This document shows, in pieces, positions 6,351-30,114 of a DNA stretch of 32,992 bases; position 1 is the stretch's first letter, and every line of letters starts with the position of its first letter. The DNA lies in NCBI GenBank assembly GCA_903839615.1, contig CAIMCX010000057.1, forward strand, positions 1-32,992, given 5' to 3'. The translations under genes were made by a program, and so were the position numbers. Origin of the DNA: an uncultured bacterium (GTDB taxonomy: Bacteria > Bipolaricaulota > Bipolaricaulia > UBA7950 > UBA9294). The notes under the pieces were generated by a model, which made no database searches, was not told where the DNA came from, and saw only the letters and a list, made by a program, of their open reading frames with translations.

Positions 6351-6489
6351 TGGTGATGCAATCGGAAGTAGAGGCCGCAGGAAGCGTAATCGCTGTTACA
6401 GACTTTCCTGGAGGGCATCTGCTAGAGTGGAGCTGGATTCCTGCTTTGCGCAAGAAGAGAAGATGAATACGCCAACAAAGGAGGTAGCA

Positions 6490-8715
6490 ATGAGGGTGCG
6501 TAAGGTCAGCCGTTTTGGCCTTCCCCTCCTCCTGGCGGTGGTCGTTCTCCTCGTGCCGGTGCTGGGCTTGGCCCAGGGCGAGGGCTTCTACACTGTCAGC
6601 CAAGGGGAAACGCAAGTTACAATCACTCCGCTGGCGAACGCCGCGGACCCGGTCGCGTTCTACAAGTCGACGAACAGCATGTCGTCCACGGGGTTCGAGA
6701 AAGCGAGCACCGCAGTCCTGTTCTTGTACAAGAACACGGTGAACGGACAGGTCTCGTTGTTTGTCATTCTCGGTGGCGCTACTGGAGGACCGGCGGGATC
6801 GACATCGATGACCTTGTCGGGAGTCCCGGCAGCAGCGGTGTTCCAGGTCCAGGATGATGGGGCTGGCGACTTCCGCGAGACGTGGCAACTCACTCCGCCG
6901 ACCGGCAGCGTGTCCTGGGTTTGGAATCAGGGAAGCGGCGACGGCATGGTGCTCGGCCCGCTTGGCGGCGCGTTTCAGTTGTCGCTCTTCCCGCAGTTCA
7001 CGGCCGGCATTACCGACGTGAAGTTCCTGTACGGCGACCGGATCGCACCGCAGACGATCACGCTGAACCGCGTCGACCCGATCATCATCGCCGCGTCGAC
7101 CAACGCGCAGCCGACTGTATCGTTCACGGTTTCGACTTCGAACGCGCGGGTCAACCAGCCGATCACGTTCGACGCCTCGGCGTCGAAGGATCCGGACGGG
7201 TCGATCGTGAAGTACGAATGGGACTTCAACGGCGACGGCGTCTTCGACCAGACGACGACCGCTCCTACGGTAAGCTACACGTACACGACGAGCGGCACGA
7301 AGACGGTCACCGTGCGTGCGACCGACAACGGGGGAGCTACGGGCAAGGCCACGCAGACGATCACCGTCGGCGAGTTGGCGGTCAGAGTGACGCGGACCAT
7401 CTCGACGTCGGCGGCGCTGCCCGGAAGCACATTCCTCGTCATCGTGCGCATGGAGCCGCAGATGGACGTCGCCGGAGTTGGCCTGCAGGAGAACCTGCCC
7501 GTCGGCTGGGAGATCAAGCCGCTCGAGAACGCCGGTGCGGCGTTCAAGCGATCCACGGTGCAGTGGATCTTCGTCGACACCATCCGTGCCAACACGACGA
7601 AAATCATCTCGTACGAGCTGACGGTCCCTGCGGCATCTCAGCTGATGACGTCGACCATGCCGGTCTGCTTCACGCTGACCGGAACCTTCCAGGCGATGAC
7701 TCCGTTCATGGAGATTCCCGTCGAGGGAGACGCTAAGGTTCAGATTTCGTCGACGCTGCCTCTCAAGGAGGCGATCGCTCACCTCGTGCCGCGCAAGAGT
7801 GTGGACGACCAAGACACGATCGACCTGCGTCTGTCGCAGAAGATCGACTCGCAGCAACTCGCGCGAGCGCTCGAGATGTGGCAGAACGACGAGTCGGTGC
7901 CGTCCACGGGAGGCGCGACGATCACCCTAGAGGAGATGAAGGAACTCGCGGCGTACGCCTACACGTGCACGCCTGTCGACCTTCCGCTCCCGCTCGTTCC
8001 TGCAGCGCACATCAACGCGGTGCGCACGATCCTCGCCCCCGTTCCGTGCAATAACGTTCTCCTGAACTACACGGGCCCGGGCGGCGACCGAGCAGGCAGC
8101 ACGTTCACCGTGAAGGTGGAGATCTGGGCGGACCAGGACCTCTATGGCGTCGGGCTGAACGAAGACGTCCCCGCTGGGTGGAAGGTCATCCCGGTGGAGA
8201 ACGACGGCCTCACCTACAAGAGGTCGAAGACGGAGTGGGTCTACCCGACGAAGCTTCCGGCGGGAACGACGAAGACCATCATCTACCAGGTCGAGGTCCC
8301 GCAGACCGAGGCCATCGAGATGGCGTCGAGCGATCCGTGCTATGCCAGCTCGAACGACCTCTACGGTGTGGTCGATTCGGCGCTTCCGTGCATGGACACG
8401 ACCGTGACCGGCGACTCGGGCGTCGACGTGAGCGAGTGCGTGTCGGTGCTGGTCGCGATCTCGCGGTGGGATGTCGAGCACGACCAGCTGGACATCACGT
8501 TGTCGAACAAGATCTCGTTCCTGCAGGTGCAGCGGGCCATCGCCTTCTGGCTTGAGGACGAGGTTGTGCCGTGGACCTGCGGCCAGACCGTGGGCTACCA
8601 CATGCTGAAGGAAATCATCGCCTACTGGCTCACCGGCACGGACATCTGTGATCCGCTCCCGGCCGCACCGAGCGGCCCCTGCGCTCCGGATGCCGCCACG
8701 TGCAGCGGAGGCTAG
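6490..8715 (+). CDS. Secreted PKD-domain protein with two copies of a novel C-terminal two-part module
   Basis: Strong SD AAAGGAGGT before ATG 6490; signal peptide MRVRKVSRFGLPLLLAVVVLLVPVLGLAQ; PKD domain 'TFDASASKDPDGSIVKYEWDFNGDGVFDQ...YTYTTSGTKTVTVRATDNGG'. Confidence 0.85.
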   Translation: MRVRKVSRFGLPLLLAVVVLLVPVLGLAQGEGFYTVSQGETQVTITPLANAADPVAFYKSTNSMSSTGFEKASTAVLFLYKNTVNGQVSLFVILGGATGGPAGSTSMTLSGVPAAAVFQVQDDGAGDFRETWQLTPPTGSVSWVWNQGSGDGMVLGPLGGAFQLSLFPQFTAGITDVKFLYGDRIAPQTITLNRVDPIIIAASTNAQPTVSFTVSTSNARVNQPITFDASASKDPDGSIVKYEWDFNGDGVFDQTTTAPTVSYTYTTSGTKTVTVRATDNGGATGKATQTITVGELAVRVTRTISTSAALPGSTFLVIVRMEPQMDVAGVGLQENLPVGWEIKPLENAGAAFKRSTVQWIFVDTIRANTTKIISYELTVPAASQLMTSTMPVCFTLTGTFQAMTPFMEIPVEGDAKVQISSTLPLKEAIAHLVPRKSVDDQDTIDLRLSQKIDSQQLARALEMWQNDESVPSTGGATITLEEMKELAAYAYTCTPVDLPLPLVPAAHINAVRTILAPVPCNNVLLNYTGPGGDRAGSTFTVKVEIWADQDLYGVGLNEDVPAGWKVIPVENDGLTYKRSKTEWVYPTKLPAGTTKTIIYQVEVPQTEAIEMASSDPCYASSNDLYGVVDSALPCMDTTVTGDSGVDVSECVSVLVAISRWDVEHDQLDITLSNKISFLQVQRAIAFWLEDEVVPWTCGQTVGYHMLKEIIAYWLTGTDICDPLPAAPSGPCAPDAATCSGG

Positions 8716-8720
8716 TCGAG

Positions 8721-8744
8721 TCGGACGCGCTTCGGCGCGCCCGA
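8721..8744 (+). other. Intergenic UUCG-tetraloop hairpin
   Basis: TCGG-A-CGCGC-TTCG-GCGCG-C-CCGA: 9 bp around one A/C mismatch. Confidence 0.6.
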
Positions 8745-8762
8745 GCGAGGAGATGATCCAAG

Positions 8763-10961
8763 ATGAGAACGACCACAAGCGCGGCGAGGGGGAAACCCCT
8801 CGCCGTGGCTCTTCTCTTCCTGTTGTTGGCGTGCACCTCTGGGGTGGTATGGGGAGAGGGATCGCTGCAGGTTGAGCAATCGCTGAGCCCTGCGCAGATT
8901 AACGTCGCAGGGGTGGGTACCAAACCGGATGCGGCGACGATCGACGTTTCGCTGATCGGACAGGGAGGCATCGAGAAGTACCCGGTCGACTGCGTTGTGG
9001 TCATTGACGCGTCGGCTTCTTCCCAGCTGGAGGACGCGAAGCAGTTCGCCTACGACCTTATCGGCCGATTGGGGAATGAGGATCGCGTGGCCGTCGTTTC
9101 GTTCGGAACGGTGGCGCGACTCGTCGTCCCGCTCACATGGGACAAGCTGGATGCGAAGGTAGCGATCAGCAACCTTGTAGGGGATAGCAAATCGGCTCTC
9201 GGGGCTGGCTTGCAGCTGGCTCGAGGGGAGCTCTTGAACTACGGGCGAGACGACGCCGTCCTGGCAATCGTTCTGATTGCGGACGGTCAGAACGACGTGG
9301 GCAGCGCACCGACGGTGGAAGGCATGGTGGCCGGGGAGACGGGGATTCGAATCGTCACCGCCGGACTCACGCCGATCATCAACAGGGCGCTTCTCAAGGG
9401 TCTCGCGGAGCAGTCTGACGGGCTCTATGTTTCCGATCTATCGTCGGACTCGGTAGACCGCGTGAGCGACAGCCTGCAGATCACGGCGGCCGCGACGGAC
9501 GTCGTTGTCACGAAGCACATCCCGCTGGGGCTGCACTTCGTCGGATCGACTCCGACAGCATCGCAGGTTCGCACCGAACGGGATGGATCGACGACCGCGA
9601 CATGGCAAGTCGCCAAAGTCGGTCTCGGCCAAGTGGTGCAGATCGAGGCGAAGTTCGACGCACCAGCCAAGGGGAGTCTGCCGACGGATGACCTCTCCAC
9701 GGTGAGTTATCAGGACTTCCGCGGCGTCGTGCGCAAGGCGTCCATTTCGCCGCTCATTCTCTCGGTGATCATGCCGAACCGCGCTCCCGTCGCGGCGTTC
9801 TCGTTTGACCCGGCAGGCCCCTCCTCAGGGGAGACGGTGGCGTTCCGCGACCAGTCGCGGGACATCGACGATGGGGACCAGGTCGTCGGCTGGCAGTGGA
9901 ACTTCGGTGATGGAGCCACAAGCAACGTGGTGAAGCCCGACCACAGCTATGCTGCGGCAGGAACTTACAGCGTGACGCTGCGTGTGACGGACAGCCACGG
10001 CGCCGAGTCCGATGCCGCGACTCGCACTCTCACGATCGGAAACGGGAAGCCCGTTCCGAGCATCGCCCTGCGGGAGCCCGGGACTCTTCGGGTCCTCACC
10101 TCGGCGTTGATCGGCGTCGACGTGCTGCTCGACGCGAGCGCATCGCACGACTTGGACGGATCGATCGTTCGCTACGGATGGGACCTCGACAACGACGGGG
10201 TCGTGGATCAGACGTCGGACAAGCCGACGCTCAGTGTGTCCTTCCCTGTAGCCGGCGACAGCACCGTGGGATTGACGGTGACAGACGACTACGGGAACTC
10301 CGTGCGGACCACGGCAACGTTCCCCGTGGTATCGAGTCTCACAACGCAGCGGACGATTGATACGTACTTGCCGAACGATGCGACGGTCGCGGGGGCGGTC
10401 GTGAGCGCTACGCTCACCATCACGGCGAACGCATCGCTCGACGGAATGGCCGTGAGCGAGAGCCTGCCGTCGGGATGGACGTTCCGGTCCGTCGAGGCGG
10501 ACGGGGCGACCGTGCGGACGACGGCAACCTCGGCGGAGTGGGTTTTCGCCGAGCGGCTCGTGGGCGGAACACAGAACTCCGTTCGCGAGATCCGCTATGA
10601 GCTGACCGCGCCGGCCGGGACGCCGACCGAAGAGCGAAGCTTCATCACGTTGCGGGGCACCGTCTCGAGTTCGTCGCCGCGGATCAACGAGACGACCTCG
10701 GGCGAAGACAAGATCACGTTGCTCAAGTACCTGTCGATCCCCGTTGCGATCTCGTGCTGGAACACAGCGACCTCTGCCGTCGATCTCAAGCTCGGAGTGG
10801 GTGGGACGATCGCGTTCGACCAGATCCAGTACGCGGTATCGCTCTGGGTCTCCGGCGGCGTTGTGCCACGGACGAATAACGGGACGATCGACCTGGCTAC
10901 ATTGGAGGGCCTCATTGCCTATTGGCTGACCGGAAGCTCGGTCTACGACCCGCTCCCGTAG
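8763..10961 (+). CDS. Secreted VWA-domain protein with two PKD domains and the shared C-terminal two-part module
   Basis: Signal peptide; MIDAS-like VVVIDASASSQ (DxSxS) and IVLIADGQND; PKD1 'AFSFDPAGPSSGETVAFRDQS...WNFGDG...HSYAAAGTYSVTLRVTDSHG'; PKD2 'DASASHDLDGSIVRYGWDLDNDGVVDQ'. Confidence 0.87.
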   Translation: MRTTTSAARGKPLAVALLFLLLACTSGVVWGEGSLQVEQSLSPAQINVAGVGTKPDAATIDVSLIGQGGIEKYPVDCVVVIDASASSQLEDAKQFAYDLIGRLGNEDRVAVVSFGTVARLVVPLTWDKLDAKVAISNLVGDSKSALGAGLQLARGELLNYGRDDAVLAIVLIADGQNDVGSAPTVEGMVAGETGIRIVTAGLTPIINRALLKGLAEQSDGLYVSDLSSDSVDRVSDSLQITAAATDVVVTKHIPLGLHFVGSTPTASQVRTERDGSTTATWQVAKVGLGQVVQIEAKFDAPAKGSLPTDDLSTVSYQDFRGVVRKASISPLILSVIMPNRAPVAAFSFDPAGPSSGETVAFRDQSRDIDDGDQVVGWQWNFGDGATSNVVKPDHSYAAAGTYSVTLRVTDSHGAESDAATRTLTIGNGKPVPSIALREPGTLRVLTSALIGVDVLLDASASHDLDGSIVRYGWDLDNDGVVDQTSDKPTLSVSFPVAGDSTVGLTVTDDYGNSVRTTATFPVVSSLTTQRTIDTYLPNDATVAGAVVSATLTITANASLDGMAVSESLPSGWTFRSVEADGATVRTTATSAEWVFAERLVGGTQNSVREIRYELTAPAGTPTEERSFITLRGTVSSSSPRINETTSGEDKITLLKYLSIPVAISCWNTATSAVDLKLGVGGTIAFDQIQYAVSLWVSGGVVPRTNNGTIDLATLEGLIAYWLTGSSVYDPLP

Positions 10962-10966
10962 AGGGG

Positions 10967-11012
10967 GCGGGTCGCGGACCCGCAATCAACAGAAAGGGGT
11001 TGCGGGTTCGCG
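10967..11012 (+). promoter_or_regulatory. Two mutually exclusive intergenic hairpins
   Basis: Hairpin A GCGGGTC-GCG-GACCCGC (10967-10983); hairpin B 10973-10987 with 10998-11012 (15 bp including two G.U pairs). They share GACCCGC. Confidence 0.5.
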
Positions 11013-11037
11013 ATCGCAAGGTGAAGAAGGAGGGGGC

Positions 11038-11733
11038 ATGCGAAGAGGGATTCGCATCGGTTTCATTGGGTTAGTGATCGCTGCCGCCACTGCGTGCGCG
11101 GTGCAAGCCGCATGGAAAGCGGACTTTACGCCGTCAAAGTGGAACCCCGCGGTAGGGGATGTGGTGAACTTCTCCGTCTGCGATTCGTGCTTGGGCAGCG
11201 GAGGCGTGTACCGGTATCTGTGGGACTTCAACAACGACGGCACAGTGGACGTCGACACCGACGCCGAAGTCGTCGCGTGCACGTTCAACGCACCTGGCTT
11301 CTACGAAGTGAAGCTGACTGTGCGCGATGCGGGGGGACGGGAACAGACAAGGACGAAGGGCGTCGTCGCCGGGGACTACCCTGTGTACTGCATTCGCGAA
11401 CTCGTCCCCCAGAACGACGGGACAATGCTGGTGTCAATGACTGTCCATGTTGTGTCGCAATGCAGTGCGGCGGGACTCAGAGAGTGGATCCCTGCAGGGT
11501 GGCGCCCTGAGGTGGTAGACCAAGGCACCACGATGTTCGCGCCCTATTTCCCTGAGACGCGCGAGCTTGACGCAGCGTGGGCTTCCGTAGCACCGGGCGA
11601 CGAATTGGTCTTCACGTACAGTCTCGACTCCAGCTATGCTTCGCAGGTGAAGACACTCTCAGGTGAGATCAGCGCGTACGTCAAGGGAGATCGCATCCCC
11701 GAGTCGGTGTGCGGCGAGTTGAGTCTGCCCTAG
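11038..11733 (+). CDS. Small secreted PKD-domain protein
   Basis: Signal peptide MRRGIRIGFIGLVIAAATACAVQA; PKD-like 'YLWDFNNDGTVDVDTDAEVVACTFNAPGFYEVKLTVRDAGG'; single diverged copy of the 'GLREWIPAGW' domain; SD AGGAGGGGGC. Confidence 0.8.
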   Translation: MRRGIRIGFIGLVIAAATACAVQAAWKADFTPSKWNPAVGDVVNFSVCDSCLGSGGVYRYLWDFNNDGTVDVDTDAEVVACTFNAPGFYEVKLTVRDAGGREQTRTKGVVAGDYPVYCIRELVPQNDGTMLVSMTVHVVSQCSAAGLREWIPAGWRPEVVDQGTTMFAPYFPETRELDAAWASVAPGDELVFTYSLDSSYASQVKTLSGEISAYVKGDRIPESVCGELSLP

Positions 11734-13611: not shown

Positions 13612-14562
13612 CTACGAGACCTTCGGGACGACGGCCGCATCGAGCACGGACTGGACGACGGCCTCGGTTGAAGCGTGGCGCGTCCAGAATTCCGGCCTGA
13701 GAATCATCCGGTGTGCGAGGGCCGCGACGGCGAATCGCTTCACGTCGTCGGGGATGACGTAGTCGCGCCCTTCGATGGCCGCCCAGGCGCGCGAGAGTTT
13801 GAATAGAGCCAAAGACCCTCGTGGACTCGCTCCGACGTACACGCTGGGATGCGCGCGGGTTCGGGCGACAAGATCCACGATGTAGGCGCCGAGTTCCTCA
13901 TCGACGATCACTGCCTCGACGGCTTGGCGCATGGCAAGAAGCTCCTCGGAACCCGTCACGCGATCGAGCGCCACCTCGTCGTCCCGGCGAGCTGCGCGCC
14001 GGCGCAGGATCTCCCTCTCTTCGAGCTCGGTTGGATAGCCTACGGCGAGACGGATCATGAACCGGTCGAGCTGAGCTTCGGGAAGCGGGAAGGTGCCCTC
14101 GTATTCGATCGGGTTCTGTGTGGCCAGCACGATGAAGGGTTGAGGAAGTCGTCGCGTGTCCCCGGCGATCGATACCTGCATCTCCTGCATCGCCTCGAGG
14201 ACGGCCGACTGGGTCTTCGGGGTGGCCCGGTTTACCTCATCTGCGAGGACGACGTTGGCGAAGATGGGGCCGGGCGCAAGCACGAACTGGCCGGTCTTCT
14301 GGTCGAGGATGTGGGATCCGGTGATGTCGCCGGGCAGGAGGTCCGGAGTGAACTGGATTCGGCGGAAGTCAAGGCCGAGGACGCGGGCGAAGCTCCGCGC
14401 GATCAGAGTTTTCGCGAGTCCCGGATTGTCGACGAACAGGACGTGGCCGCCGGCCAGCACCGCGGCCGCGACCTGTCGAAGGACGTCATCCTTGCCCACC
14501 ACTGCGCGGCCGACCTCCTGGACAATGGCCGCCGACCGCTCCTTGACCTCCGCTACGTTCAT
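13612..14562 (-). CDS. MoxR-family AAA+ ATPase
   Basis: VGKDDVLRQVAAAVLAGGHVLFVDNPGLAKTLIARSFARVLGLDFRRIQFTPDLLPGDITGSHI; NVVLADEVNRATPKTQSAVLEAMQE; ATQNPIEYEGTFPLPEAQLDRFM. Confidence 0.95.
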   Translation of the reverse strand: MNVAEVKERSAAIVQEVGRAVVGKDDVLRQVAAAVLAGGHVLFVDNPGLAKTLIARSFARVLGLDFRRIQFTPDLLPGDITGSHILDQKTGQFVLAPGPIFANVVLADEVNRATPKTQSAVLEAMQEMQVSIAGDTRRLPQPFIVLATQNPIEYEGTFPLPEAQLDRFMIRLAVGYPTELEEREILRRRAARRDDEVALDRVTGSEELLAMRQAVEAVIVDEELGAYIVDLVARTRAHPSVYVGASPRGSLALFKLSRAWAAIEGRDYVIPDDVKRFAVAALAHRMILRPEFWTRHASTEAVVQSVLDAAVVPKVS

Positions 14563-15105
14563 CTACGCCTCCTGTTGTTGACGTTCGAGTTCCGCGAGGG
14601 TCTCCTCTACGAGGTGGACGAACTCGTCTCCAGACAAGTGGAGAGTTCCTTCGCGCGCGAGAAACTTGGCGACCTTCGGGTTTCGCTCGCGGAGACGTCG
14701 CTTTGAGGTCTCCCACGCGGATTCCTCCGTTCCGCCGTACTGACAGACCGCGACATCGGCAGCGAGGCGAGCTAGGCGTGCATGGACGCGTGAGCGGGCC
14801 AGTCGACTGCCTTCCACGGCGCGGAGGGCGTCCACGATCGGTGCCAGAGACCCGGACGGCAGAGCCGGCGGTTCCGGATCGCGGAGCCTGTGCCAGTGAG
14901 GGCGAACGCGGAACGCAAGAGCCAGCAGGACGGGAGTCGCAAACACCGTGGGAACGACCCACAGAACGGCCTGGGGGAGAACTGCGATGGCCTCCCAGAA
15001 CGTGGCCCCGTGCCGCATGGGCACTGTCAGCGCGCCGACGAAGAGAAAGACGAGCAAGAGAACCGCAACGCCGACCCATCCGAGCGAAGACGGCTTCTCG
15101 CTCAT
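14563..15105 (-). CDS. Hypothetical membrane protein in MoxR operon
   Basis: Two TM segments near the N-terminus; ATGA overlap with upstream gene, abuts MoxR. Confidence 0.7.
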   Translation of the reverse strand: MSEKPSSLGWVGVAVLLLVFLFVGALTVPMRHGATFWEAIAVLPQAVLWVVPTVFATPVLLALAFRVRPHWHRLRDPEPPALPSGSLAPIVDALRAVEGSRLARSRVHARLARLAADVAVCQYGGTEESAWETSKRRLRERNPKVAKFLAREGTLHLSGDEFVHLVEETLAELERQQQEA

Positions 15106-16049
15106 GCGCTTGCGGGGGCCGACTGTGCGGCGAGGCTGTCGCGAAGTTCTGTCAGACAGCGGATAGCCTGCGGCGCCAGAGGATCGTCGGGCCGACGTCC
15201 GTAGCGCACAAGCTCGAACAGCGACGTGAGTTCCTCGAGCGGCGCGCCGCCGAGTCCCAGCGCTTCGAGAGAACGGACGAACTCACGCGGCGTAAGCGGA
15301 CTCGGATCGACGCCGGACGACGCGGCGTAGGCGCGCATCACATCGCGATAGCACTCCTCGACGACGCCGGCCGCGTCACGCCCCAGATGAAGGCGATGAA
15401 GCGCGAAGTCAACCGAGTCGCGAATGCGTTCCTCACTGCGGGCGGGAACGGCGAACCTTCGAGGCCTGGCCCGAAGAGCACCGACGACGATGCCGGTGCA
15501 CGCGCCGAGTGCGAGGAGACCGACAACCAACTGGAGGAGACTGGACGTCGCTCGAGCCTCTCCTCCCGGCGTGTTCGACACTTCCTGCGCCCGGGAGATC
15601 GGGGCGGCGGTCGTCTCGTCGGCGGGGGCAGGCTGCTCGACCTTCGACTCGGGAGCCTGCTCGATCCCTTGCGCCGATTCCATCATGCGCATCCGAATGA
15701 CGAGGGCGAAGGCGACCATCACAAAGAGCACGAGGACGGTTGCAGGCAGAGAGCGGCGGCGAGGCTTCATCGGTTGCGTGAGTTGCGTAGCGATGAAGAC
15801 GAGCAGGGCGAGGACAACCAGGCCGAGCGGTCCGTAGGCCAGGATGTAGTCCGCCGTCCGAAGAGGCTGATCGGGTCCCGCACTGAGCTGGTAGGCCGAT
15901 GCGGGGATTCTCTCACCGATTGTCTCGTCGAACGCGCTTCCCTCCGTCAGCTTCACCTGGCCGAGCGAAGCGGCGAGGAAGACGGTGAGGAGCACGAGTG
16001 CCGCAAGGCTGGCGACAGTGACCCAGGGGGCGGCGCGGCGAGTCAACAC
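15102..16049 (-). CDS. DUF4129-like membrane protein
   Basis: C-terminal 'DFALHRLHLGRDAAGVVEECYRDVMRAYAASSGVDPSPLTPREFVRSLEALGLGGAPLEELTSLFELVRYGRRP'; TM segments. Start likely GTG 16049 or TTG 16046, overlapping the aspS stop. Confidence 0.78.
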   Translation of the reverse strand: MLTRRAAPWVTVASLAALVLLTVFLAASLGQVKLTEGSAFDETIGERIPASAYQLSAGPDQPLRTADYILAYGPLGLVVLALLVFIATQLTQPMKPRRRSLPATVLVLFVMVAFALVIRMRMMESAQGIEQAPESKVEQPAPADETTAAPISRAQEVSNTPGGEARATSSLLQLVVGLLALGACTGIVVGALRARPRRFAVPARSEERIRDSVDFALHRLHLGRDAAGVVEECYRDVMRAYAASSGVDPSPLTPREFVRSLEALGLGGAPLEELTSLFELVRYGRRPDDPLAPQAIRCLTELRDSLAAQSAPASA

Positions 16050-17785
16050 TCCTCCACAGAAATGCCCAATTCGGCCAACTGCTTCGGAGCCGCTGGCATC
16101 GGCGCGTCTGTCAGCGGACACATCGCGTTGGCCGTCTTGGGAAACGCGATCACGTCGCGCAAGGACGACTCACCGGCCATGATCATGGCGAGTCGGTCCA
16201 GGCCGAGCGCAAAGCCGCCGTGCGGCGGGGCGCCGTACTCGAGCGCCTGCAGGAACCATCCGAAACGGAGGTCGGCGTCCTCCGGCGTGATATGAAGACG
16301 ACGAAAGATTCGCTCTTGGAGCTCGCGCGAGTGAATCCGGATACTTCCACTGCCGAGCTCCGTGCCATTGAGGACGAGGTCGTAGGCATAGGACGGGATG
16401 TGGAGGGGATCCGATTCGATCTTGTCGTAATCCTCCGGTCGTAGCGACGTGAAGGCGTGGTGCGCGCTGGCCAGGTTTCCTTCCTCGTCGAGCTCGAACA
16501 ACGGGAAATCCGTCACCCACAGGAATCTCCATCCCGGGACGGCGAGCGATTCCTTCCGTCCGACGGCCAGCCGCAGCTCGCCGAGTGCTTTGTCAATTCC
16601 CTGCCCCGCGAGCAAGAGCAGAAGGTCGCCCTTCTCCGCTTCGAACGTGGCGATGAGGGTCGCAAGCTCCTCGCCGGACAGGAACTTGGAGATGGAAGAG
16701 ACGACGGGGTCTTCCACCTTGACCCACGACAGACCCTTGGCGCCGGCGGCGACGGCCGTGGCTTGCAGGCTGTCGAGGGTCGCTCGGGAATACCCTGAGC
16801 ACCTCTTCGCGACGATCCCGGCAACCCTGCCGCCTGAGGCGACGGCGTCGGCGAAGACGCGGAACCCGGAGCGGGAGAAGAGGGACGAGACGTCGCGGAT
16901 CTCCATCCCAAACCGCATGTCCGGCTTGTCGATTCCGAAACGGCCCATGGCGTCAGCGTGCGTCAGGCGAGGGAACGGGAGTTCCAGCTCGATCCCGAGG
17001 ACGTCTCGGAAGACGCGAGCCACGGCCCCCTCCACGAGACCGTAGATCTCGTCCGGACCATCCGGGAACGAAACCTCAAGATCGAGTTGGGTGAACTCCG
17101 GCTGGCGGTCGGCCCGAAGGTCCTCGTCGCGGAAGCACTTGACAAGCTGGAAGTACCGGTCGAGTCCTCCCACCATCAGCATCTGCTTGAACAACTGCGG
17201 CGACTGGGGTAGCGCATAAAAGGAGCCTTGATGCACGCGGCTGGGAACGAGGAAGTCACGCGCTCCTTCCGGCGTTGACTTCGTCAACACCGGCGTCTCG
17301 ACCTCCACGAAGCCCCGCTCGGAGAAGAAGTCGCGCGTCGCCCTGAAGATGCAGTGGCGCAGGCGCAGGGCCTTCTGCAGCCGGTCGCGGCGAAGGTCGA
17401 CGTACCGATAGCGAAGCCTTGTCTCCTCCGTCGCATCCGATCCATCGCCATCCACAAGGAAGGGTGGTGTCTTCGATCGGTTCTCGATTGCCATCGTTTC
17501 GACTCGCACCTCAATCTCCCCGGTCTTCATCTCCAGATTGAGATTGCCTGCGGACCGTCTCTGCACCGTTCCGTGGACGACGAGGACGTCCTCGCGGTTC
17601 AGAGTGTGAGCTGACTGGAGGTCGTCGCGGTCGTCGGCGAAGAGGAGCTGGACGAGTCCTGTGTGGTCGCGCAGGTCGACGAACGTGAGCTTTCCCAAGT
17701 CGCGCCGGCGATTTACCCACCCCGCGAGCTTCACGCTCCGACCCACGTCGGCTGCCGAGAGCTGGCCGCAATATGCAGTGCGCAT
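16043..17785 (-). CDS. aspS: Aspartyl-tRNA synthetase (bacterial type with GAD insertion)
   Basis: MRTAYCGQLSAADVGRSVKLAGWVNRRRDLGKLTFVDLRDHTGLVQLLF; FLVPSRVHQGSFYALPQSPQLFKQMLMVGGLDRYFQLVKCFRDEDLRADRQPEFTQLDLE; GLDRLAMIMAGESSLRDVIAFPKT. Confidence 0.97.
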   Translation of the reverse strand: MRTAYCGQLSAADVGRSVKLAGWVNRRRDLGKLTFVDLRDHTGLVQLLFADDRDDLQSAHTLNREDVLVVHGTVQRRSAGNLNLEMKTGEIEVRVETMAIENRSKTPPFLVDGDGSDATEETRLRYRYVDLRRDRLQKALRLRHCIFRATRDFFSERGFVEVETPVLTKSTPEGARDFLVPSRVHQGSFYALPQSPQLFKQMLMVGGLDRYFQLVKCFRDEDLRADRQPEFTQLDLEVSFPDGPDEIYGLVEGAVARVFRDVLGIELELPFPRLTHADAMGRFGIDKPDMRFGMEIRDVSSLFSRSGFRVFADAVASGGRVAGIVAKRCSGYSRATLDSLQATAVAAGAKGLSWVKVEDPVVSSISKFLSGEELATLIATFEAEKGDLLLLLAGQGIDKALGELRLAVGRKESLAVPGWRFLWVTDFPLFELDEEGNLASAHHAFTSLRPEDYDKIESDPLHIPSYAYDLVLNGTELGSGSIRIHSRELQERIFRRLHITPEDADLRFGWFLQALEYGAPPHGGFALGLDRLAMIMAGESSLRDVIAFPKTANAMCPLTDAPMPAAPKQLAELGISVEEC

Positions 17786-17817
17786 AGCGAGAGACCTCCG
17801 AAAGGTGCGATGCGCCG

Positions 17818-17845
17818 ATTATAGTGCCGCACGGGGAGGCCGCAA
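17818..17845 (-). promoter_or_regulatory. Sigma70-like promoter for aspS
   Basis: Minus strand TTGCGG (17845-17840), 16-nt spacer, TATAAT (17823-17818). Confidence 0.6.
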
Positions 17846-17874
17846 TTGCAGCGCTGACGTGGGGTGGCGAAGAG

Positions 17875-18909
17875 CTAGGCGTCCGAGAGGGAGCCTTTGA
17901 AGAACCGGCGATCCATGTTCCTCTCCCAGTCGGTGAAATCCCCGTCTTCGCCGTCCGTGGCGATGTGTGTCTTGATCATGTTGAGCTTGGCGGAGAGGTT
18001 GTCGAAGTGGTACACGGCGACGGCTTCGGCGCTCTTTGGGACCATCGCTGCGGCGTACTCCAGCTCCCCGTGGTGCGAGATCAGGATGTGCTCAAGCAGT
18101 ACGGGCATTCTTGGGTCGGCCCACGTGAGCGCCTTAGCCTCGTCCCGGACCATGTCGCGTCCCAAGAGCAGGTGGCCGATCAGCTGGCCGGCGAAGCCGT
18201 AGCGAGGAGCGATCGGATTTTCGAACTCCTCGAGCTTCCCGATGTCGTGCAGGATCGCACCGGCGACGGCAAGGCCGCGATGCAGACGCAGGCCGGCCTG
18301 GTCTTCGGCGAAACGTGCGACGCCTTCCGCGACCTCGAGCGTGTGCTCGAGGAGGCCGCCGATGTAGGCATGGTGATTGGAGACGGCAGCGGGCAGTTCG
18401 CGGAACTCCTTCGCCGTTCGAGTGAGAAGACGAGTCGTGAGCAAACGCAGCGGTTCCGGCTCGATGGTCGCTGCGAGCGCCATGAGGCTGGCCCACATCT
18501 CGTCGAGGTTCCTCTCCGACGTCGGAACCAGGAGCGCGGGGTCGAAGCCTGGCAGCTTGCCACCGTCGCGCTCCTCCGGCGTGAGCCTACGAATCGATTC
18601 GACGATGAGCTGAAGCGCATTGCGGTACGTCTCCACTCTCGCCTGAACGGAGACGAAGTCGCCCTCATCGAACTCGCTCGCGTACCGCTGACTGGCCTCC
18701 GCCCACGCCCGAGCAGGGAGGGTGCCCGATCGGTCGGCGAGGATGAGCTCGAGGTACGGATCTCCGGTCCGAGTCGAGCGCTGAGCCTTCTTCTTGACGA
18801 GGAAGCACTGTCCAACGCGGGTTCCTTCGCGAAGGTCGGAGATCGGCACATGAAGGAGGGAGTAGGGTACCTCTCCCCGGAGTCGATCCATCAGCCGTTC
18901 CTGCGACAT
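17875..18909 (-). CDS. YhaM-like 3'-5' exoribonuclease (OB-fold plus HD domain)
   Basis: LELILADRSGTLPARAWAEASQRYASEFDEGDFVSVQARVETYRNALQLIVESIRRL (OB fold); HHAYIGGLLEHTLEVAEG...AGAILHDIGKLEEF (HD). ATG 18909 preceded by AAAGGA. Confidence 0.88.
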   Translation of the reverse strand: MSQERLMDRLRGEVPYSLLHVPISDLREGTRVGQCFLVKKKAQRSTRTGDPYLELILADRSGTLPARAWAEASQRYASEFDEGDFVSVQARVETYRNALQLIVESIRRLTPEERDGGKLPGFDPALLVPTSERNLDEMWASLMALAATIEPEPLRLLTTRLLTRTAKEFRELPAAVSNHHAYIGGLLEHTLEVAEGVARFAEDQAGLRLHRGLAVAGAILHDIGKLEEFENPIAPRYGFAGQLIGHLLLGRDMVRDEAKALTWADPRMPVLLEHILISHHGELEYAAAMVPKSAEAVAVYHFDNLSAKLNMIKTHIATDGEDGDFTDWERNMDRRFFKGSLSDA

Positions 18910-19022
18910 GCCGTCCTTTCTTTGGGCGGATCTCGCAACGCTCTCGCGTTCCGCCTCAACGCTCATCGAGTCCGGGACTGCCCTGCCATCGAAGCTACGC
19001 CCAGTCCGTAGTGGAGTGTCTC

Positions 19023-25556: not shown

Positions 25557-28500
25557 TCAGCTTCCGACCTCGACGTCGAACGAGAGAGGAGCGTAGCGAA
25601 GGACCGCCTCGGGGAATGCCAGGATCGAGATGTAGAGCCAAGTGTCTCCCTTAGCCTGTTCGATCCCGATCCGAAGGCAGTTCGCGATGTCCTTGAACAG
25701 GCCGAAATCGGGGTGCAGCGTCGAATGCGCCTCCGCGGCATACGTCGCGCCGAGGGTGAGCCCCCAACCGTCTACCGACTCGACTTCTGCACTGAGGTCC
25801 CAGCCGGAGATCACATGCGCGGCCAGGTCGGCGTGGAGATCGAGCGATAGCGAGAAGCGGTCAACCTTGGACGCAAGCGTCAGCGACGACGTCTCGAAGC
25901 GCCGGTTGGTCGTGTCAAGTGGCAAGTGCCAGGTAGCGGACCTTGTACCGTCGGTCCACTTCGCGAGGAGGTCAAATGCGGTGATGCGGCCCTCTGCCGG
26001 ACTGAACGTGCCACTGGCCGTCCAGTCGGCGAACGCACTCCACGTGGCGGAGGCACGGAGGAGCCCCGGACCGCTCTCGAGGCTGTAGCTTCCCGAGACC
26101 TTGAGATGGATCACGCCCTTGCGGTCGAGAGTCCAGTCGAGCTCATTGCCGCTCGTCAGCCGGTCGGAGTCGAGCGGGCTGGCTCCGAGGACCCAAGTGC
26201 TCGCCCAGGTCACCGTAAGGTCGCCGAACGTCGCGGTGGGAGTAAGAGCCAGCGCGAGTTGGTCCTTCTTCCCGAGCGGGCCATCGTAGATGGATCCGCG
26301 GATCGATGCTTCGGGGACGATGCGAAGCGGACCGAGGCTGAACGAATCGGCTACTGCGTTGGCAGCGACCGCCAGGCGGAACGTCCCGTCGAGAGGCTTT
26401 CCGAGAGTCCCCTCTCTTACCCACCCGGCACTCGCGCGCGGCTCAATGCGCAACGTGCCCACGTGAAGCGCTGGCGTCGCGACACTGAGTTCGGGGAGCT
26501 GCTCGGAGACGTGCGTGGCTCCGGCCGTCGTTGTTGTGAGACTCCGCGCTGCCGCCGCGGTGATCTTCCCGATGCCCGAGTTGCCCGACAGGACGAAGGA
26601 GTAGGAGAGGCGTTGCTTGGCCCCCTTCGCGCTGTAGTCGAGCGTGCCGGTTCCCTGCCAGTCCGTGCTGAGCGATGCGGTGTGCTGGAACTTCAGCGAG
26701 GTCTCGGAATCGCCTACCTTCGCTGCGAGATGGTAGCCGGAGATCTCACCTCGCTCGCCGCCCAGGTCGTAGCGCAGGATGCCGCCCAATCCGATCTCGC
26801 CATAGCGGGTGTACACGTCGACGTTGACGTTTCCGTACAGCGCTTGGCTGACGAAGTACGGCAGGCTCCATTTCGCGAACCATCCTCGCTCCGCGCTTCT
26901 GCCGATCGCGGGGAAGAGAGGCGCCTCGAGCGTTTCCTTCAGCGGCTGGACGTAGAGCGGCAACCAGACAAGGGGCACTCCGCCGGCGCTGCCGGTGATG
27001 CCGTACGCGACGAGCAGCCTGTCGGGATAGAGAAGAAGCCGGTTGGCGCGCAGGCTGTACGGCTGTTGCTGGATGCCGACGTCGCAGCAGTGACAGGTCG
27101 TGAGTTCGCTGCCGTAGGCCTCAAGAAGCGTCAGACGACCGCTCTCGAACTCAAGTCGGCCGCGGTCGGCTCGAAAGTAGAGCTCCGTCTCGTCTCCGGC
27201 CGAGTTCCTAAATCGGGTTGAGCCGGCCAGAGCCGTCGCCTCGGCAGATTGCGGCCGGACGTTGTCCGTCTCCGTCGCCATCTCGGCGACCAGCGTATCG
27301 CTCTCCACATCGAGTCCTTCACCGGTGGCCAGGGCCACGTGCCCGGAGGCCGACATCCGCCAGCTGCCGGACTGCACTTCCTCGAGGACGAGCGCGTCAG
27401 CGCGAATGGACGTGTCTGCAAAGGTAGCGCTGACATTGCCCGACGCGCGAAGCTGCGTGTCATCCTCGGAAACAAACAGCTGATCGCAGTTGATGTGGAC
27501 AGGGATGGCCGCGTGGAGAGACACCGACGCGAGGGAAACGACTACGAGGACGGACAGGACGACGAGCGGGAGCCTTGTCCGCAGGCGACTCCACACGTCG
27601 CGCGATGCGAGGCGATCGACGCGCAGGAAGAGCAAGAGGCCCAAGGCTCCAAACAGGATGTCCGGCAGCCACGCAGCGAGCGCTGGATCCATCGCAGCTC
27701 GTCGGCCAAGCGTCTGAGTCCACCAGAGAACGCCTTGGTAGATCGCAACGAGAAGGAGGGCGAGGACGATGCCGACGGCCCGGCTACGAGGCTGGAACGC
27801 CAGACTGAGCGAACCGCTGACGAGGACGAAGATGACGGCGGCGAGAGGCAGCGCCATCTTAAGGTGGATCTCCACCAGGTATTCATTCACTCGTTGGCCG
27901 TTGGCGCGAGCTTGGGCCACTCGCGTCAAGAGCTCCGCCATGCCCATCTCGGTCGTCGTTCGCGAGCGCGCCAGGAGTTCCGTGATCCCCTGATCGATGG
28001 GCAGGGCGAGCGAGGCCACGATGGCGGAAAACGTGAGGTTCCCCGCGCGGTCGAAGCCGTAGACGTGCGCGTTGGTGAGTGACCACGCGTCTCCGCTTCG
28101 GGTGCCCTCTTCCGCCGTGAGCATCGTGAGCTGAGTCTGGCCGCCGGCCTGCGCCTGGGGGAAGAGCTGCCCGCTTGTGTCGTAGATGTGGACGTCGTAC
28201 AGCTTCCCAGTCGATTCGTCGTAGCGACGGATGTAGAGGAACTCGTCGTTCGGCCCCTTGAAGAAGGCGTTCGACGTGATGCGCGGAACACCCTGCTGGA
28301 AGATGATGCCGCGGAGGGCGTCCTGATAAGCGCTCTCGGATGCGGGGACGAGCCAGTTGTAGACGCCGAAGTCGGCGACGGCGATGACGCCGGCAGCCAG
28401 GACGAGCGGGAGAAGCACGCGACGCAGCGGGATTCCGAGGGATTCGAGAGCGACGACCTCCCGGTCGTGGACCATTCGCCCGAGGCCGAGAAAGGTTGCG

Positions 28501-28715
28501 AAGAGCACGGCCATTGGGACGGCCACGACAAGCAAGCTCGGGACCTTGAGAAGAACGAGGCGCAACAGGGTGGGCATGCTGATGCCGCGATCCACCATCA
28601 GATCCGAGAGAGACAGGATGATGTTCAGAAGGATGAACAGGACGAGTCCGGCGATCGCCAACGCGAAGGGGCCGATCATCTCGCGCAGCACGTATCGGTC
28701 GGAACGGCGCAGCAT
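25557..28715 (-). CDS. Fusion of LptF/LptG-family permease with LptA/LptD (OstA plus beta-barrel-like) region
   Basis: N-terminal ~373 aa: MLRRSDRYVLREMIGPFALAIAGLVLFILLNIILSLSDLMVDRGIS...VPMAVLFATFLGLGRMVHDREVVALESLGIPLRRVL...VEIHLKMALPLAAVIFVLVSGSLSLAF (LptF/G). C-terminal ~679 aa: OstA-like 'INCDQLFVSEDDTQLRASGNVSATFADTSIRADALVLEE' and LptD-like 'TTCHCC...YSLRANRLLLYPDRLLVAYGITGSAGGVPLVWLPLYVQPLKETLEAPLFPAIGRSAERGWFAKWSLPYFVS'. Start ATG 28715 rather than the ORF track's 28835. Confidence 0.88.
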   Translation of the reverse strand: MLRRSDRYVLREMIGPFALAIAGLVLFILLNIILSLSDLMVDRGISMPTLLRLVLLKVPSLLVVAVPMAVLFATFLGLGRMVHDREVVALESLGIPLRRVLLPLVLAAGVIAVADFGVYNWLVPASESAYQDALRGIIFQQGVPRITSNAFFKGPNDEFLYIRRYDESTGKLYDVHIYDTSGQLFPQAQAGGQTQLTMLTAEEGTRSGDAWSLTNAHVYGFDRAGNLTFSAIVASLALPIDQGITELLARSRTTTEMGMAELLTRVAQARANGQRVNEYLVEIHLKMALPLAAVIFVLVSGSLSLAFQPRSRAVGIVLALLLVAIYQGVLWWTQTLGRRAAMDPALAAWLPDILFGALGLLLFLRVDRLASRDVWSRLRTRLPLVVLSVLVVVSLASVSLHAAIPVHINCDQLFVSEDDTQLRASGNVSATFADTSIRADALVLEEVQSGSWRMSASGHVALATGEGLDVESDTLVAEMATETDNVRPQSAEATALAGSTRFRNSAGDETELYFRADRGRLEFESGRLTLLEAYGSELTTCHCCDVGIQQQPYSLRANRLLLYPDRLLVAYGITGSAGGVPLVWLPLYVQPLKETLEAPLFPAIGRSAERGWFAKWSLPYFVSQALYGNVNVDVYTRYGEIGLGGILRYDLGGERGEISGYHLAAKVGDSETSLKFQHTASLSTDWQGTGTLDYSAKGAKQRLSYSFVLSGNSGIGKITAAAARSLTTTTAGATHVSEQLPELSVATPALHVGTLRIEPRASAGWVREGTLGKPLDGTFRLAVAANAVADSFSLGPLRIVPEASIRGSIYDGPLGKKDQLALALTPTATFGDLTVTWASTWVLGASPLDSDRLTSGNELDWTLDRKGVIHLKVSGSYSLESGPGLLRASATWSAFADWTASGTFSPAEGRITAFDLLAKWTDGTRSATWHLPLDTTNRRFETSSLTLASKVDRFSLSLDLHADLAAHVISGWDLSAEVESVDGWGLTLGATYAAEAHSTLHPDFGLFKDIANCLRIGIEQAKGDTWLYISILAFPEAVLRYAPLSFDVEVGS

Positions 28716-28815: not shown

Positions 28816-30114
28816 ATGGGAACGCGAGTCTGCATCGAGACCTGGGGCTGTCAGCTGAACCTTCATCAGTCGGAAGGCATCGCCGGCGTGCTGGAGAAGG
28901 CGGGTCTCACGGTCGTAGACCGTCTGGAAGATGCCGACGTTGTCTTGTTCAATGGCTGCATGGTCCGTGGCAAGGCGGAAGAGAAGCTGCTCGGCCGCAT
29001 CGGAGCCGTGGTGGAAGAGAAGCGGCGCCGAAATGTCGTGTTCGGCGTCGGCGGTTGTTTCGGGCAAGTATACGGGGATACCCTCTTCGCACGCTCGCGG
29101 GCGATCGATTTTGTGTTCGGCACGCGTCGCCACACGGAACTGCCTGCCTTGATCGAAGCTGCTAGGCGGGATCGCGTGTCTCTTCTTGCCGCTGCGGACG
29201 ACATCTCCCTCGAGGAGACGCCTTTTCGCAGGGCGAGCGGTGTGACGGCCATGGTGAGCATCGCGGAAGGGTGTTCGAACGCATGTGCCTACTGTATCGT
29301 GCCTCGGGCGCGCGGGCCGATGCGGAGCCGAGATCCGGACGCCGTTCTGGCCGAGGTACGCGACGCGGTTCGAGGAGGCCGCCGCGAGGTGCTTCTCTTG
29401 GGGCAGAACGTGAACGCCTACGGCACGGACCGGCTGGAATTCGGAGGGTTCGCGCGCCTGCTCGTTCGAGTGGCCGACGAAGGGCCGGAGCGAATCCGGT
29501 TCACGAGTTCGCATCCGCGTGACATGAACCAGGAGATCCTTGACGCGATGGCGAGCCGGACGAACGTCTGCCGCCACCTTCACCTTCCGCTGCAATCTGG
29601 ATCGGATCGCGTGCTGCGGGCAATGAACCGCGGCTACACGCGGGAGTCATTCCTGCGTTTGGTCGACGCCGCGCGTCGCACGGTCTCCACGGTCAACGTC
29701 ACGACGGACCTCATCGTCGGATTCCCGGGGGAGACGGAGTCCGAGTTTGAGGAGACACTCGAGGTCGTTCGGGAGGTCCGGTTCGGCTCGATCTATGCGG
29801 CGAAGTACTCGCCGCGCCCTGGGACGCGCGCCGCGGCGTGGGATGACGACGTGCCGACCGACGAAAAGGAGAGCCGATTGGCGTGCCTGCTCGACATCGA
29901 GCGAACGATTGCCGCGGGGGAGAATGCGGAACTCGTGGGCGCGACGCTGATCATCCTCATCGAAGGGCAGACGGGCGACGGACGGCACTTCGGCCGCGCC
30001 GACGACCATCGGACTGTCGTCGTGGAAGGGCAGGTGCGCGACGGCGATCTCATCGAGGTCCGAATCGTCTCGGCGTCTGCATCGGCGCTCATCGGAGAAG
30101 CCGAGGTTTCATAG
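28816..30114 (+). CDS. miaB: MiaB-like radical SAM methylthiotransferase
   Basis: ETWGCQLNLHQSEGI; NGCMVRGKAEEK; GGCFGQ; IAEGCSNACAYCIVPRARGPMRSRDP (CxxxCxxC); LLLGQNVNAYG; LPLQSGSDRVLRAMNRGYT; C-terminal TRAM-like domain. Confidence 0.9.
   Translation: MGTRVCIETWGCQLNLHQSEGIAGVLEKAGLTVVDRLEDADVVLFNGCMVRGKAEEKLLGRIGAVVEEKRRRNVVFGVGGCFGQVYGDTLFARSRAIDFVFGTRRHTELPALIEAARRDRVSLLAAADDISLEETPFRRASGVTAMVSIAEGCSNACAYCIVPRARGPMRSRDPDAVLAEVRDAVRGGRREVLLLGQNVNAYGTDRLEFGGFARLLVRVADEGPERIRFTSSHPRDMNQEILDAMASRTNVCRHLHLPLQSGSDRVLRAMNRGYTRESFLRLVDAARRTVSTVNVTTDLIVGFPGETESEFEETLEVVREVRFGSIYAAKYSPRPGTRAAAWDDDVPTDEKESRLACLLDIERTIAAGENAELVGATLIILIEGQTGDGRHFGRADDHRTVVVEGQVRDGDLIEVRIVSASASALIGEAEVS

Follow-up and report, generated by a model that had tools for sequence, protein, structure and literature searches.

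The window analysed here, the whole 32,992-nucleotide stretch of contig CAIMCX010000057.1 from an uncultured member of the Bipolaricaulota, carries on its minus strand, at positions 25557-28715, one open frame of 1052 aa (ORF listing). The first-pass annotation had described a single frame joining an LptF/G permease to an LptA/LptD-like region; the frame is present, also in relatives, its coordinates hold, and the strand, on which that annotation was silent, is now added. The ATG at 28715 is the start that agrees with the starts of the aligned relatives (M-x-x-R-x-D-R-Y), an upstream ATG at 28835 having been rejected for its overlap with the start of the divergent miaB gene (28816). A DinG/YoaA-like helicase gene lies after miaB, while the other flank holds genes for a nitrilase and a FlK-type thioesterase. 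The window's own genome is a draft of 124 contigs, 76% complete. An Rfam scan of the window gave no matches. Elsewhere in the window, three adjacent PKD-domain genes (6427-11733, plus strand), one of which encodes a von Willebrand A domain as well, are likely to specify secreted or surface proteins, and ORFs of 285, 530 and 395 aa at 13849-19011 (plus strand) have no Pfam matches at E<=1e-5.

Residues 1-372 (27600-28715, minus strand) form the LptF/LptG permease domain, as indicated by Pfam, by solved LptG and LptF structures and by hydrophobic segments. The N-terminus had been called LptF/G-like, and indeed the whole LptF_LptG model (PF03739, profile positions 1-353) is matched over residues 7-365 with E=2.1e-72. 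The NCBIfam models for LptG and LptF match as well, both under their equivalog cut-offs; the PDB matches of the window protein are LptG and LptF chains, and six hydrophobic segments (17-37, 53-74, 96-116, 287-302, 312-327 and 352-362) surround a periplasmic domain. Other lineages, too, carry one LptF/G gene instead of the two of E. coli. Here the pair of LptF and LptG paralogues of the E. coli type was not found: LptF/G is single-copy in the window genome and in nearly all genomes of the phylum, and a search of the rest of the window genome, at its 76% completeness, recovered no separate lptF, lptG or lptD. Given one gene, LptF/G probably forms a homodimeric permease, and synthesis would then yield two permease to two LptD halves; the 1:1 stoichiometry of a simple bridge, as first proposed, gives way to this arrangement.

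The C-terminal half is where the domain assignment changes most. LptD_N matches the window protein alone weakly and below threshold (residues 407-460, E=0.028), and Pfam LptD (PF04453) finds nothing over its cut-off in the window genome. Across the C-terminal regions of 50 full-length phylum proteins, the set used for the alignment throughout, Pfam detects LptD_N in 19, DUF3769 in 15 and LptD, weakly, in 3; LptD_N matches over the cut-off share a frame with LptF/G in other phylum members. Since the PF04453 model is narrow, its negative result is superseded by profile-profile comparison. In an hhalign comparison with 18 LptDs (PF04453 proteins from other phyla), the 50 regions reach a probability of 99.96% and E=9.1e-39; the alignment covers 586 columns and extends from the beta-taco up to and including the last strand. 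With a second subset the value is E=3.8e-39. Aligned with those LptDs are a TTC motif, a PVxxLPxY...P...P..G.S..RG stretch and a cysteine near the C-terminus. Against the PDB, the profile of the 50 regions ranks LptD chains first (8h1r, E=1.3e-5), 18 of the 20 matches being LptD or LptA, and a profile of this half (A6) detects it in 91 of 100 phylum genomes. AlphaFold2, run on the C-terminal part from two input sequences only, returned a pLDDT of 33, and the model was not used.

By these comparisons residues 403-1052 are a complete LptD, beta-taco plus barrel, and the domain identity is firm; the domain check proposed for the two halves thus returns LptF_LptG by Pfam and LptD by hhalign. The N-terminal beta-taco/OstA domain spans approximately residues 403-572 (27000-27509, minus strand; LptD_N, PDB match, hhalign) and the barrel approximately residues 573-1037 (25605-26999, minus strand; hhalign against the 18 LptDs of other phyla). 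Of the LptA/LptD-like region originally proposed, the LptD part stands; an additional LptA module was rejected, the region preceding the barrel being LptD's own beta-taco. The beta-taco ends in a TTCxC motif, with C541 at 27093-27095 and C543 at 27087-27089, and the barrel contains C1013 at 25677-25679. C541 and C1013, invariant in the 50 homologues, align with the invariant LptD cysteines, and thus appear to match those that link beta-taco and barrel by a putative disulfide. The barrel probably ends with the strand TWLYISILAF, after which comes a short C-terminal tail, VLRYAPLSFDVEVGS, which with the stop codon occupies 25557-25604 (minus strand; alignment columns after the invariant A1033-F1034). 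The ending SFDVEVGS had been read correctly, but the atypical barrel that it was then said to allow is not borne out: LptDs of other phyla also extend slightly past the last strand, and the profile comparison gives a full-length LptD, not an atypical one.

The fused frame is not peculiar to this contig. In a relative of the same genus (L002), 73% identical over residues 1-1051, the frame is the same and the junction (around 27600) intact. LptF/G occurs in 92 of 100 phylum genomes, nearly always once, and a search for the same architecture in these relatives found, by hand count, that 76 of these 92 have a frame of 960 aa or more; in most of the remaining ones the gene ends at a contig edge. 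The others include one apparently frameshifted gene (G011), two genomes with unfused genes (G044, G045) and one with a split gene (G072). Two separate genes, which, if consistent among relatives, were to count against the fusion, are thus found in few. Among the matches listed from about 190 genomes sampled outside the phylum there is no LptF/G-LptD fusion, and LptF/G frames reach 943 aa. The long frames that were read (L121, L122, L124, L126) are LptF-LptG tandems, which, like the fusion described here, place Lpt permease genes in one frame; they join two inner-membrane subunits, whereas the present fusion joins an inner- and an outer-membrane protein. Outside the phylum, too, a 1269-aa frame (L127, in G167) has LptF/G near its C-terminal end, and an LptF/G frame in another phylum (G226, C5:6352-7416) contains one in-frame TGA. 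A search of the open-access literature found no description of an LptFG-LptD fusion. Judged from the sequences compared, the fusion is real, conserved across almost the whole phylum and, as far as the open-access literature goes, undescribed.

Between the two halves lies a linker (27510-27599, minus strand; alignment of 50 homologues, pattern scans) made of a basic stretch and a seventh hydrophobic segment (383-401), which in the 50 homologues ends in small residues, often A-Q(E/D). A candidate signal peptidase I cut, SLHA-AIPV, falls after residue 402. With a cleavage matrix derived from the signal peptides of 18 E. coli proteins, the best site lies in the linker for 20 of the 50 homologues, versus 15 of 50 for TM3; the median linker score is 6.6, below the E. 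coli training sites (14-22), and TM3 has small residues at -1/-3 nearly as often as the linker. These proteins are rich in alanine and their other helices reach similar scores, so the three home-made signal-peptide scorings are suggestive and not discriminating; hence cleavage is something I infer from the wider pattern.

Part of that pattern comes from relatives in which the halves are apart. In family f4, which belongs to the window's class, an lptC/A-like gene, lptB, lptFG and a separate lptD follow consecutively (L068, L070; lptFG of 381 and 379 aa, lptD of 776 and 873 aa), and LptD bears its own N-terminal signal sequence. One separate f4 LptD (L070:3788-6409, minus strand) seems to have two OstA/LptD_N repeats ahead of its barrel, where the fused proteins have one fewer. 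The LptF/G tree nests f4 weakly, and its test gives no rejection of a fused-only clade (p=0.17). In an outgroup genome (L116) the order is lptA-lptB-lptFG, and a separate gene nearby encodes a small LptD-like protein (482 aa); the operon order shared with it favours the f4 arrangement being ancestral instead of a later split.

A second case is a genome of the window's own family, G072 (L071, L156), which in the LptF/G tree groups with fused f1 members, nested in the fused clade. Here the fusion gene is split into two genes 1.08 Mb apart, an observation drawn from one single-contig genome of 69% estimated completeness. Its LptFG (C1:249660) stops within the linker, at RVRRAVPFLGGLAAG, and its LptD (C1:1328795-1330852), which shares 34% identity with residues 404-1052 of the window protein (E=5e-131), has its own ATG and a canonical signal peptide, starting MRAIAAVAAVVCAVLAPVVLA and continuing after the predicted cut with ADEVPF. 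As LptD is free there behind an ordinary signal peptide, it is separable from the permease, and this signal-peptide-led LptD is the best evidence for a polyprotein.

The reading considered probable, with appreciable confidence, is therefore an lptFG-lptD translational fusion whose product is the signal peptidase I-cleaved precursor of a non-LPS lipid exporter. The LptF/G half would insert in the inner membrane and homodimerise on LptB2, the hydrophobic linker would act as an internal signal peptide carrying the LptD half through Sec, and signal peptidase I would cut at the linker end. The released LptD would be assembled into the outer membrane by the Omp85/BamA machine, its beta-taco forming the receiving end of the bridge, while the donor end would be the LptC/A-like protein encoded beside lptB. 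With both halves translated from a single message, their synthesis would be held equal, and the fusion probably arose when a stop codon was lost between neighbouring lptFG and lptD genes.

The original proposal had left a choice between a covalent bridge and a cleaved polyprotein. The linker's likeness to a signal peptide, f4 and G072 favour the polyprotein, although a permanent trans-envelope bridge, in which the linker stays in the inner membrane as transmembrane helix seven and keeps the outer-membrane barrel tethered to the permease, keeps a small share of the probability. The linker is hydrophobic enough for such a helix and the cleavage scores are modest; moreover, the fusion is retained in nearly all families, and its persistence across the phylum could mean that the attachment itself is useful, which would count against cleavage. 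Yet one beta-taco joined by few residues, all that stands between helix and barrel, seems too short for a normal periplasm, and an outer membrane detached at the poles has been described in Bipolaricaulota (PMC10665443), which fits a universal short tether poorly. A homodimeric permease would, in addition, bear two barrels, and LptD is free in f4 and both free and signal-peptide-led in G072. Were the bridge true, one polypeptide would span both membranes, pin them together and carry a non-LPS lipid along itself.

It is still less probable that the fusion stays uncut at closely apposed membranes, or that its LptD half adopts some other periplasmic arrangement; the sequence is compatible with either, but a full-length barrel conserved to its last strand, together with Omp85, points to an outer-membrane barrel. 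Two proteins could also arise by internal initiation within the fused frame, given that 46 of the 50 members have an ATG, GTG or TTG in the region of the linker; this was rejected as very improbable, for a start codon is conserved in no linker column, which makes separate initiation of LptD unlikely, and a Shine-Dalgarno-like sequence accompanies one in only 3 of 50. Finally, an assembly or annotation artefact, a stop lost or a frameshift at the junction, might be feared of a single draft genome in 124 contigs, but can practically be discounted even without reads, since the frame is intact at the junction in L002 and in the 76 fused genomes, among them the single-contig G004 and G005, with the C-terminal profile matching in those frames.

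As to the partners of the polyprotein thus favoured, LptB is encoded in 82 of 100 phylum genomes, including two of the window's genus (G069, G070), and Omp85 in 91 of 100; neither was found in the window's incomplete genome. All eight genomes without LptF/G also have no LptB (Fisher p=2.4e-7, uncorrected for shared ancestry). Four genomes of genus g8 (G079-G082) and four of f4 (G041-G043, G046) have no LptF/G, LptB or LptD, yet keep Omp85, so that g8 and part of f4 have apparently lost the whole Lpt-type system despite an outer membrane. All 20 lptB loci that were read have an LptC/A-like ORF directly upstream, its end meeting the start of lptB. The length of this gene varies among the lptB loci (L092-L111) and is longer in the window's family, where the protein may contain two beta-taco domains and perhaps replaces LptA.

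The export of LPS, the pathway assumed by the first-pass annotation, is probably not what takes place here. LpxC is absent from all 100 phylum genomes, four control genomes being positive, thus the cargo is probably not LPS and the Lpt-type machine here probably exports another lipid. Along the same line, a Bipolaricaulota genome was reported to have no LPS genes (PMC6092417), and a glycolipid cargo has been proposed for the Lpt systems of spirochetes and other LPS-lacking diderms (PMC10353723).

Compared with the E. coli LptB2FGC-LptA-LptDE system, the permease, the ATPase, the LptC-like protein and LptD are homologous and the LptD cysteines are conserved in both; here, however, there is one LptF/G gene, LptD is fused, LpxC is missing and no separate LptA is recognised. 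Borrelia burgdorferi likewise has a complete Lpt-type machine in an LPS-free diderm (PMC10353723), but its components are all separate proteins, with LptF and LptG as two genes. The diderm Firmicutes (Negativicutes, Halanaerobiales; PMC5007114) resemble f4 in that their LptF/G gene is single and that lptB forms a cluster with OstA-domain genes; they do make LPS, and no clear LptD was found and no fusion reported there.

To sum up, a permease of the inner membrane and a barrel of the outer membrane are encoded on one message throughout a phylum. According to a sequence survey, the atypical diderms that it covered lack lptD (PMC8871954); by contrast, LptD is present here, hidden at the end of the permease gene and beneath standard Pfam cut-offs. 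With a nearly complete Lpt-type machine in bacteria that lack LpxC, the question of its non-LPS cargo becomes a concrete one, and the fused, unfused and re-split versions offer material for testing whether the Lpt parts need to be separate.
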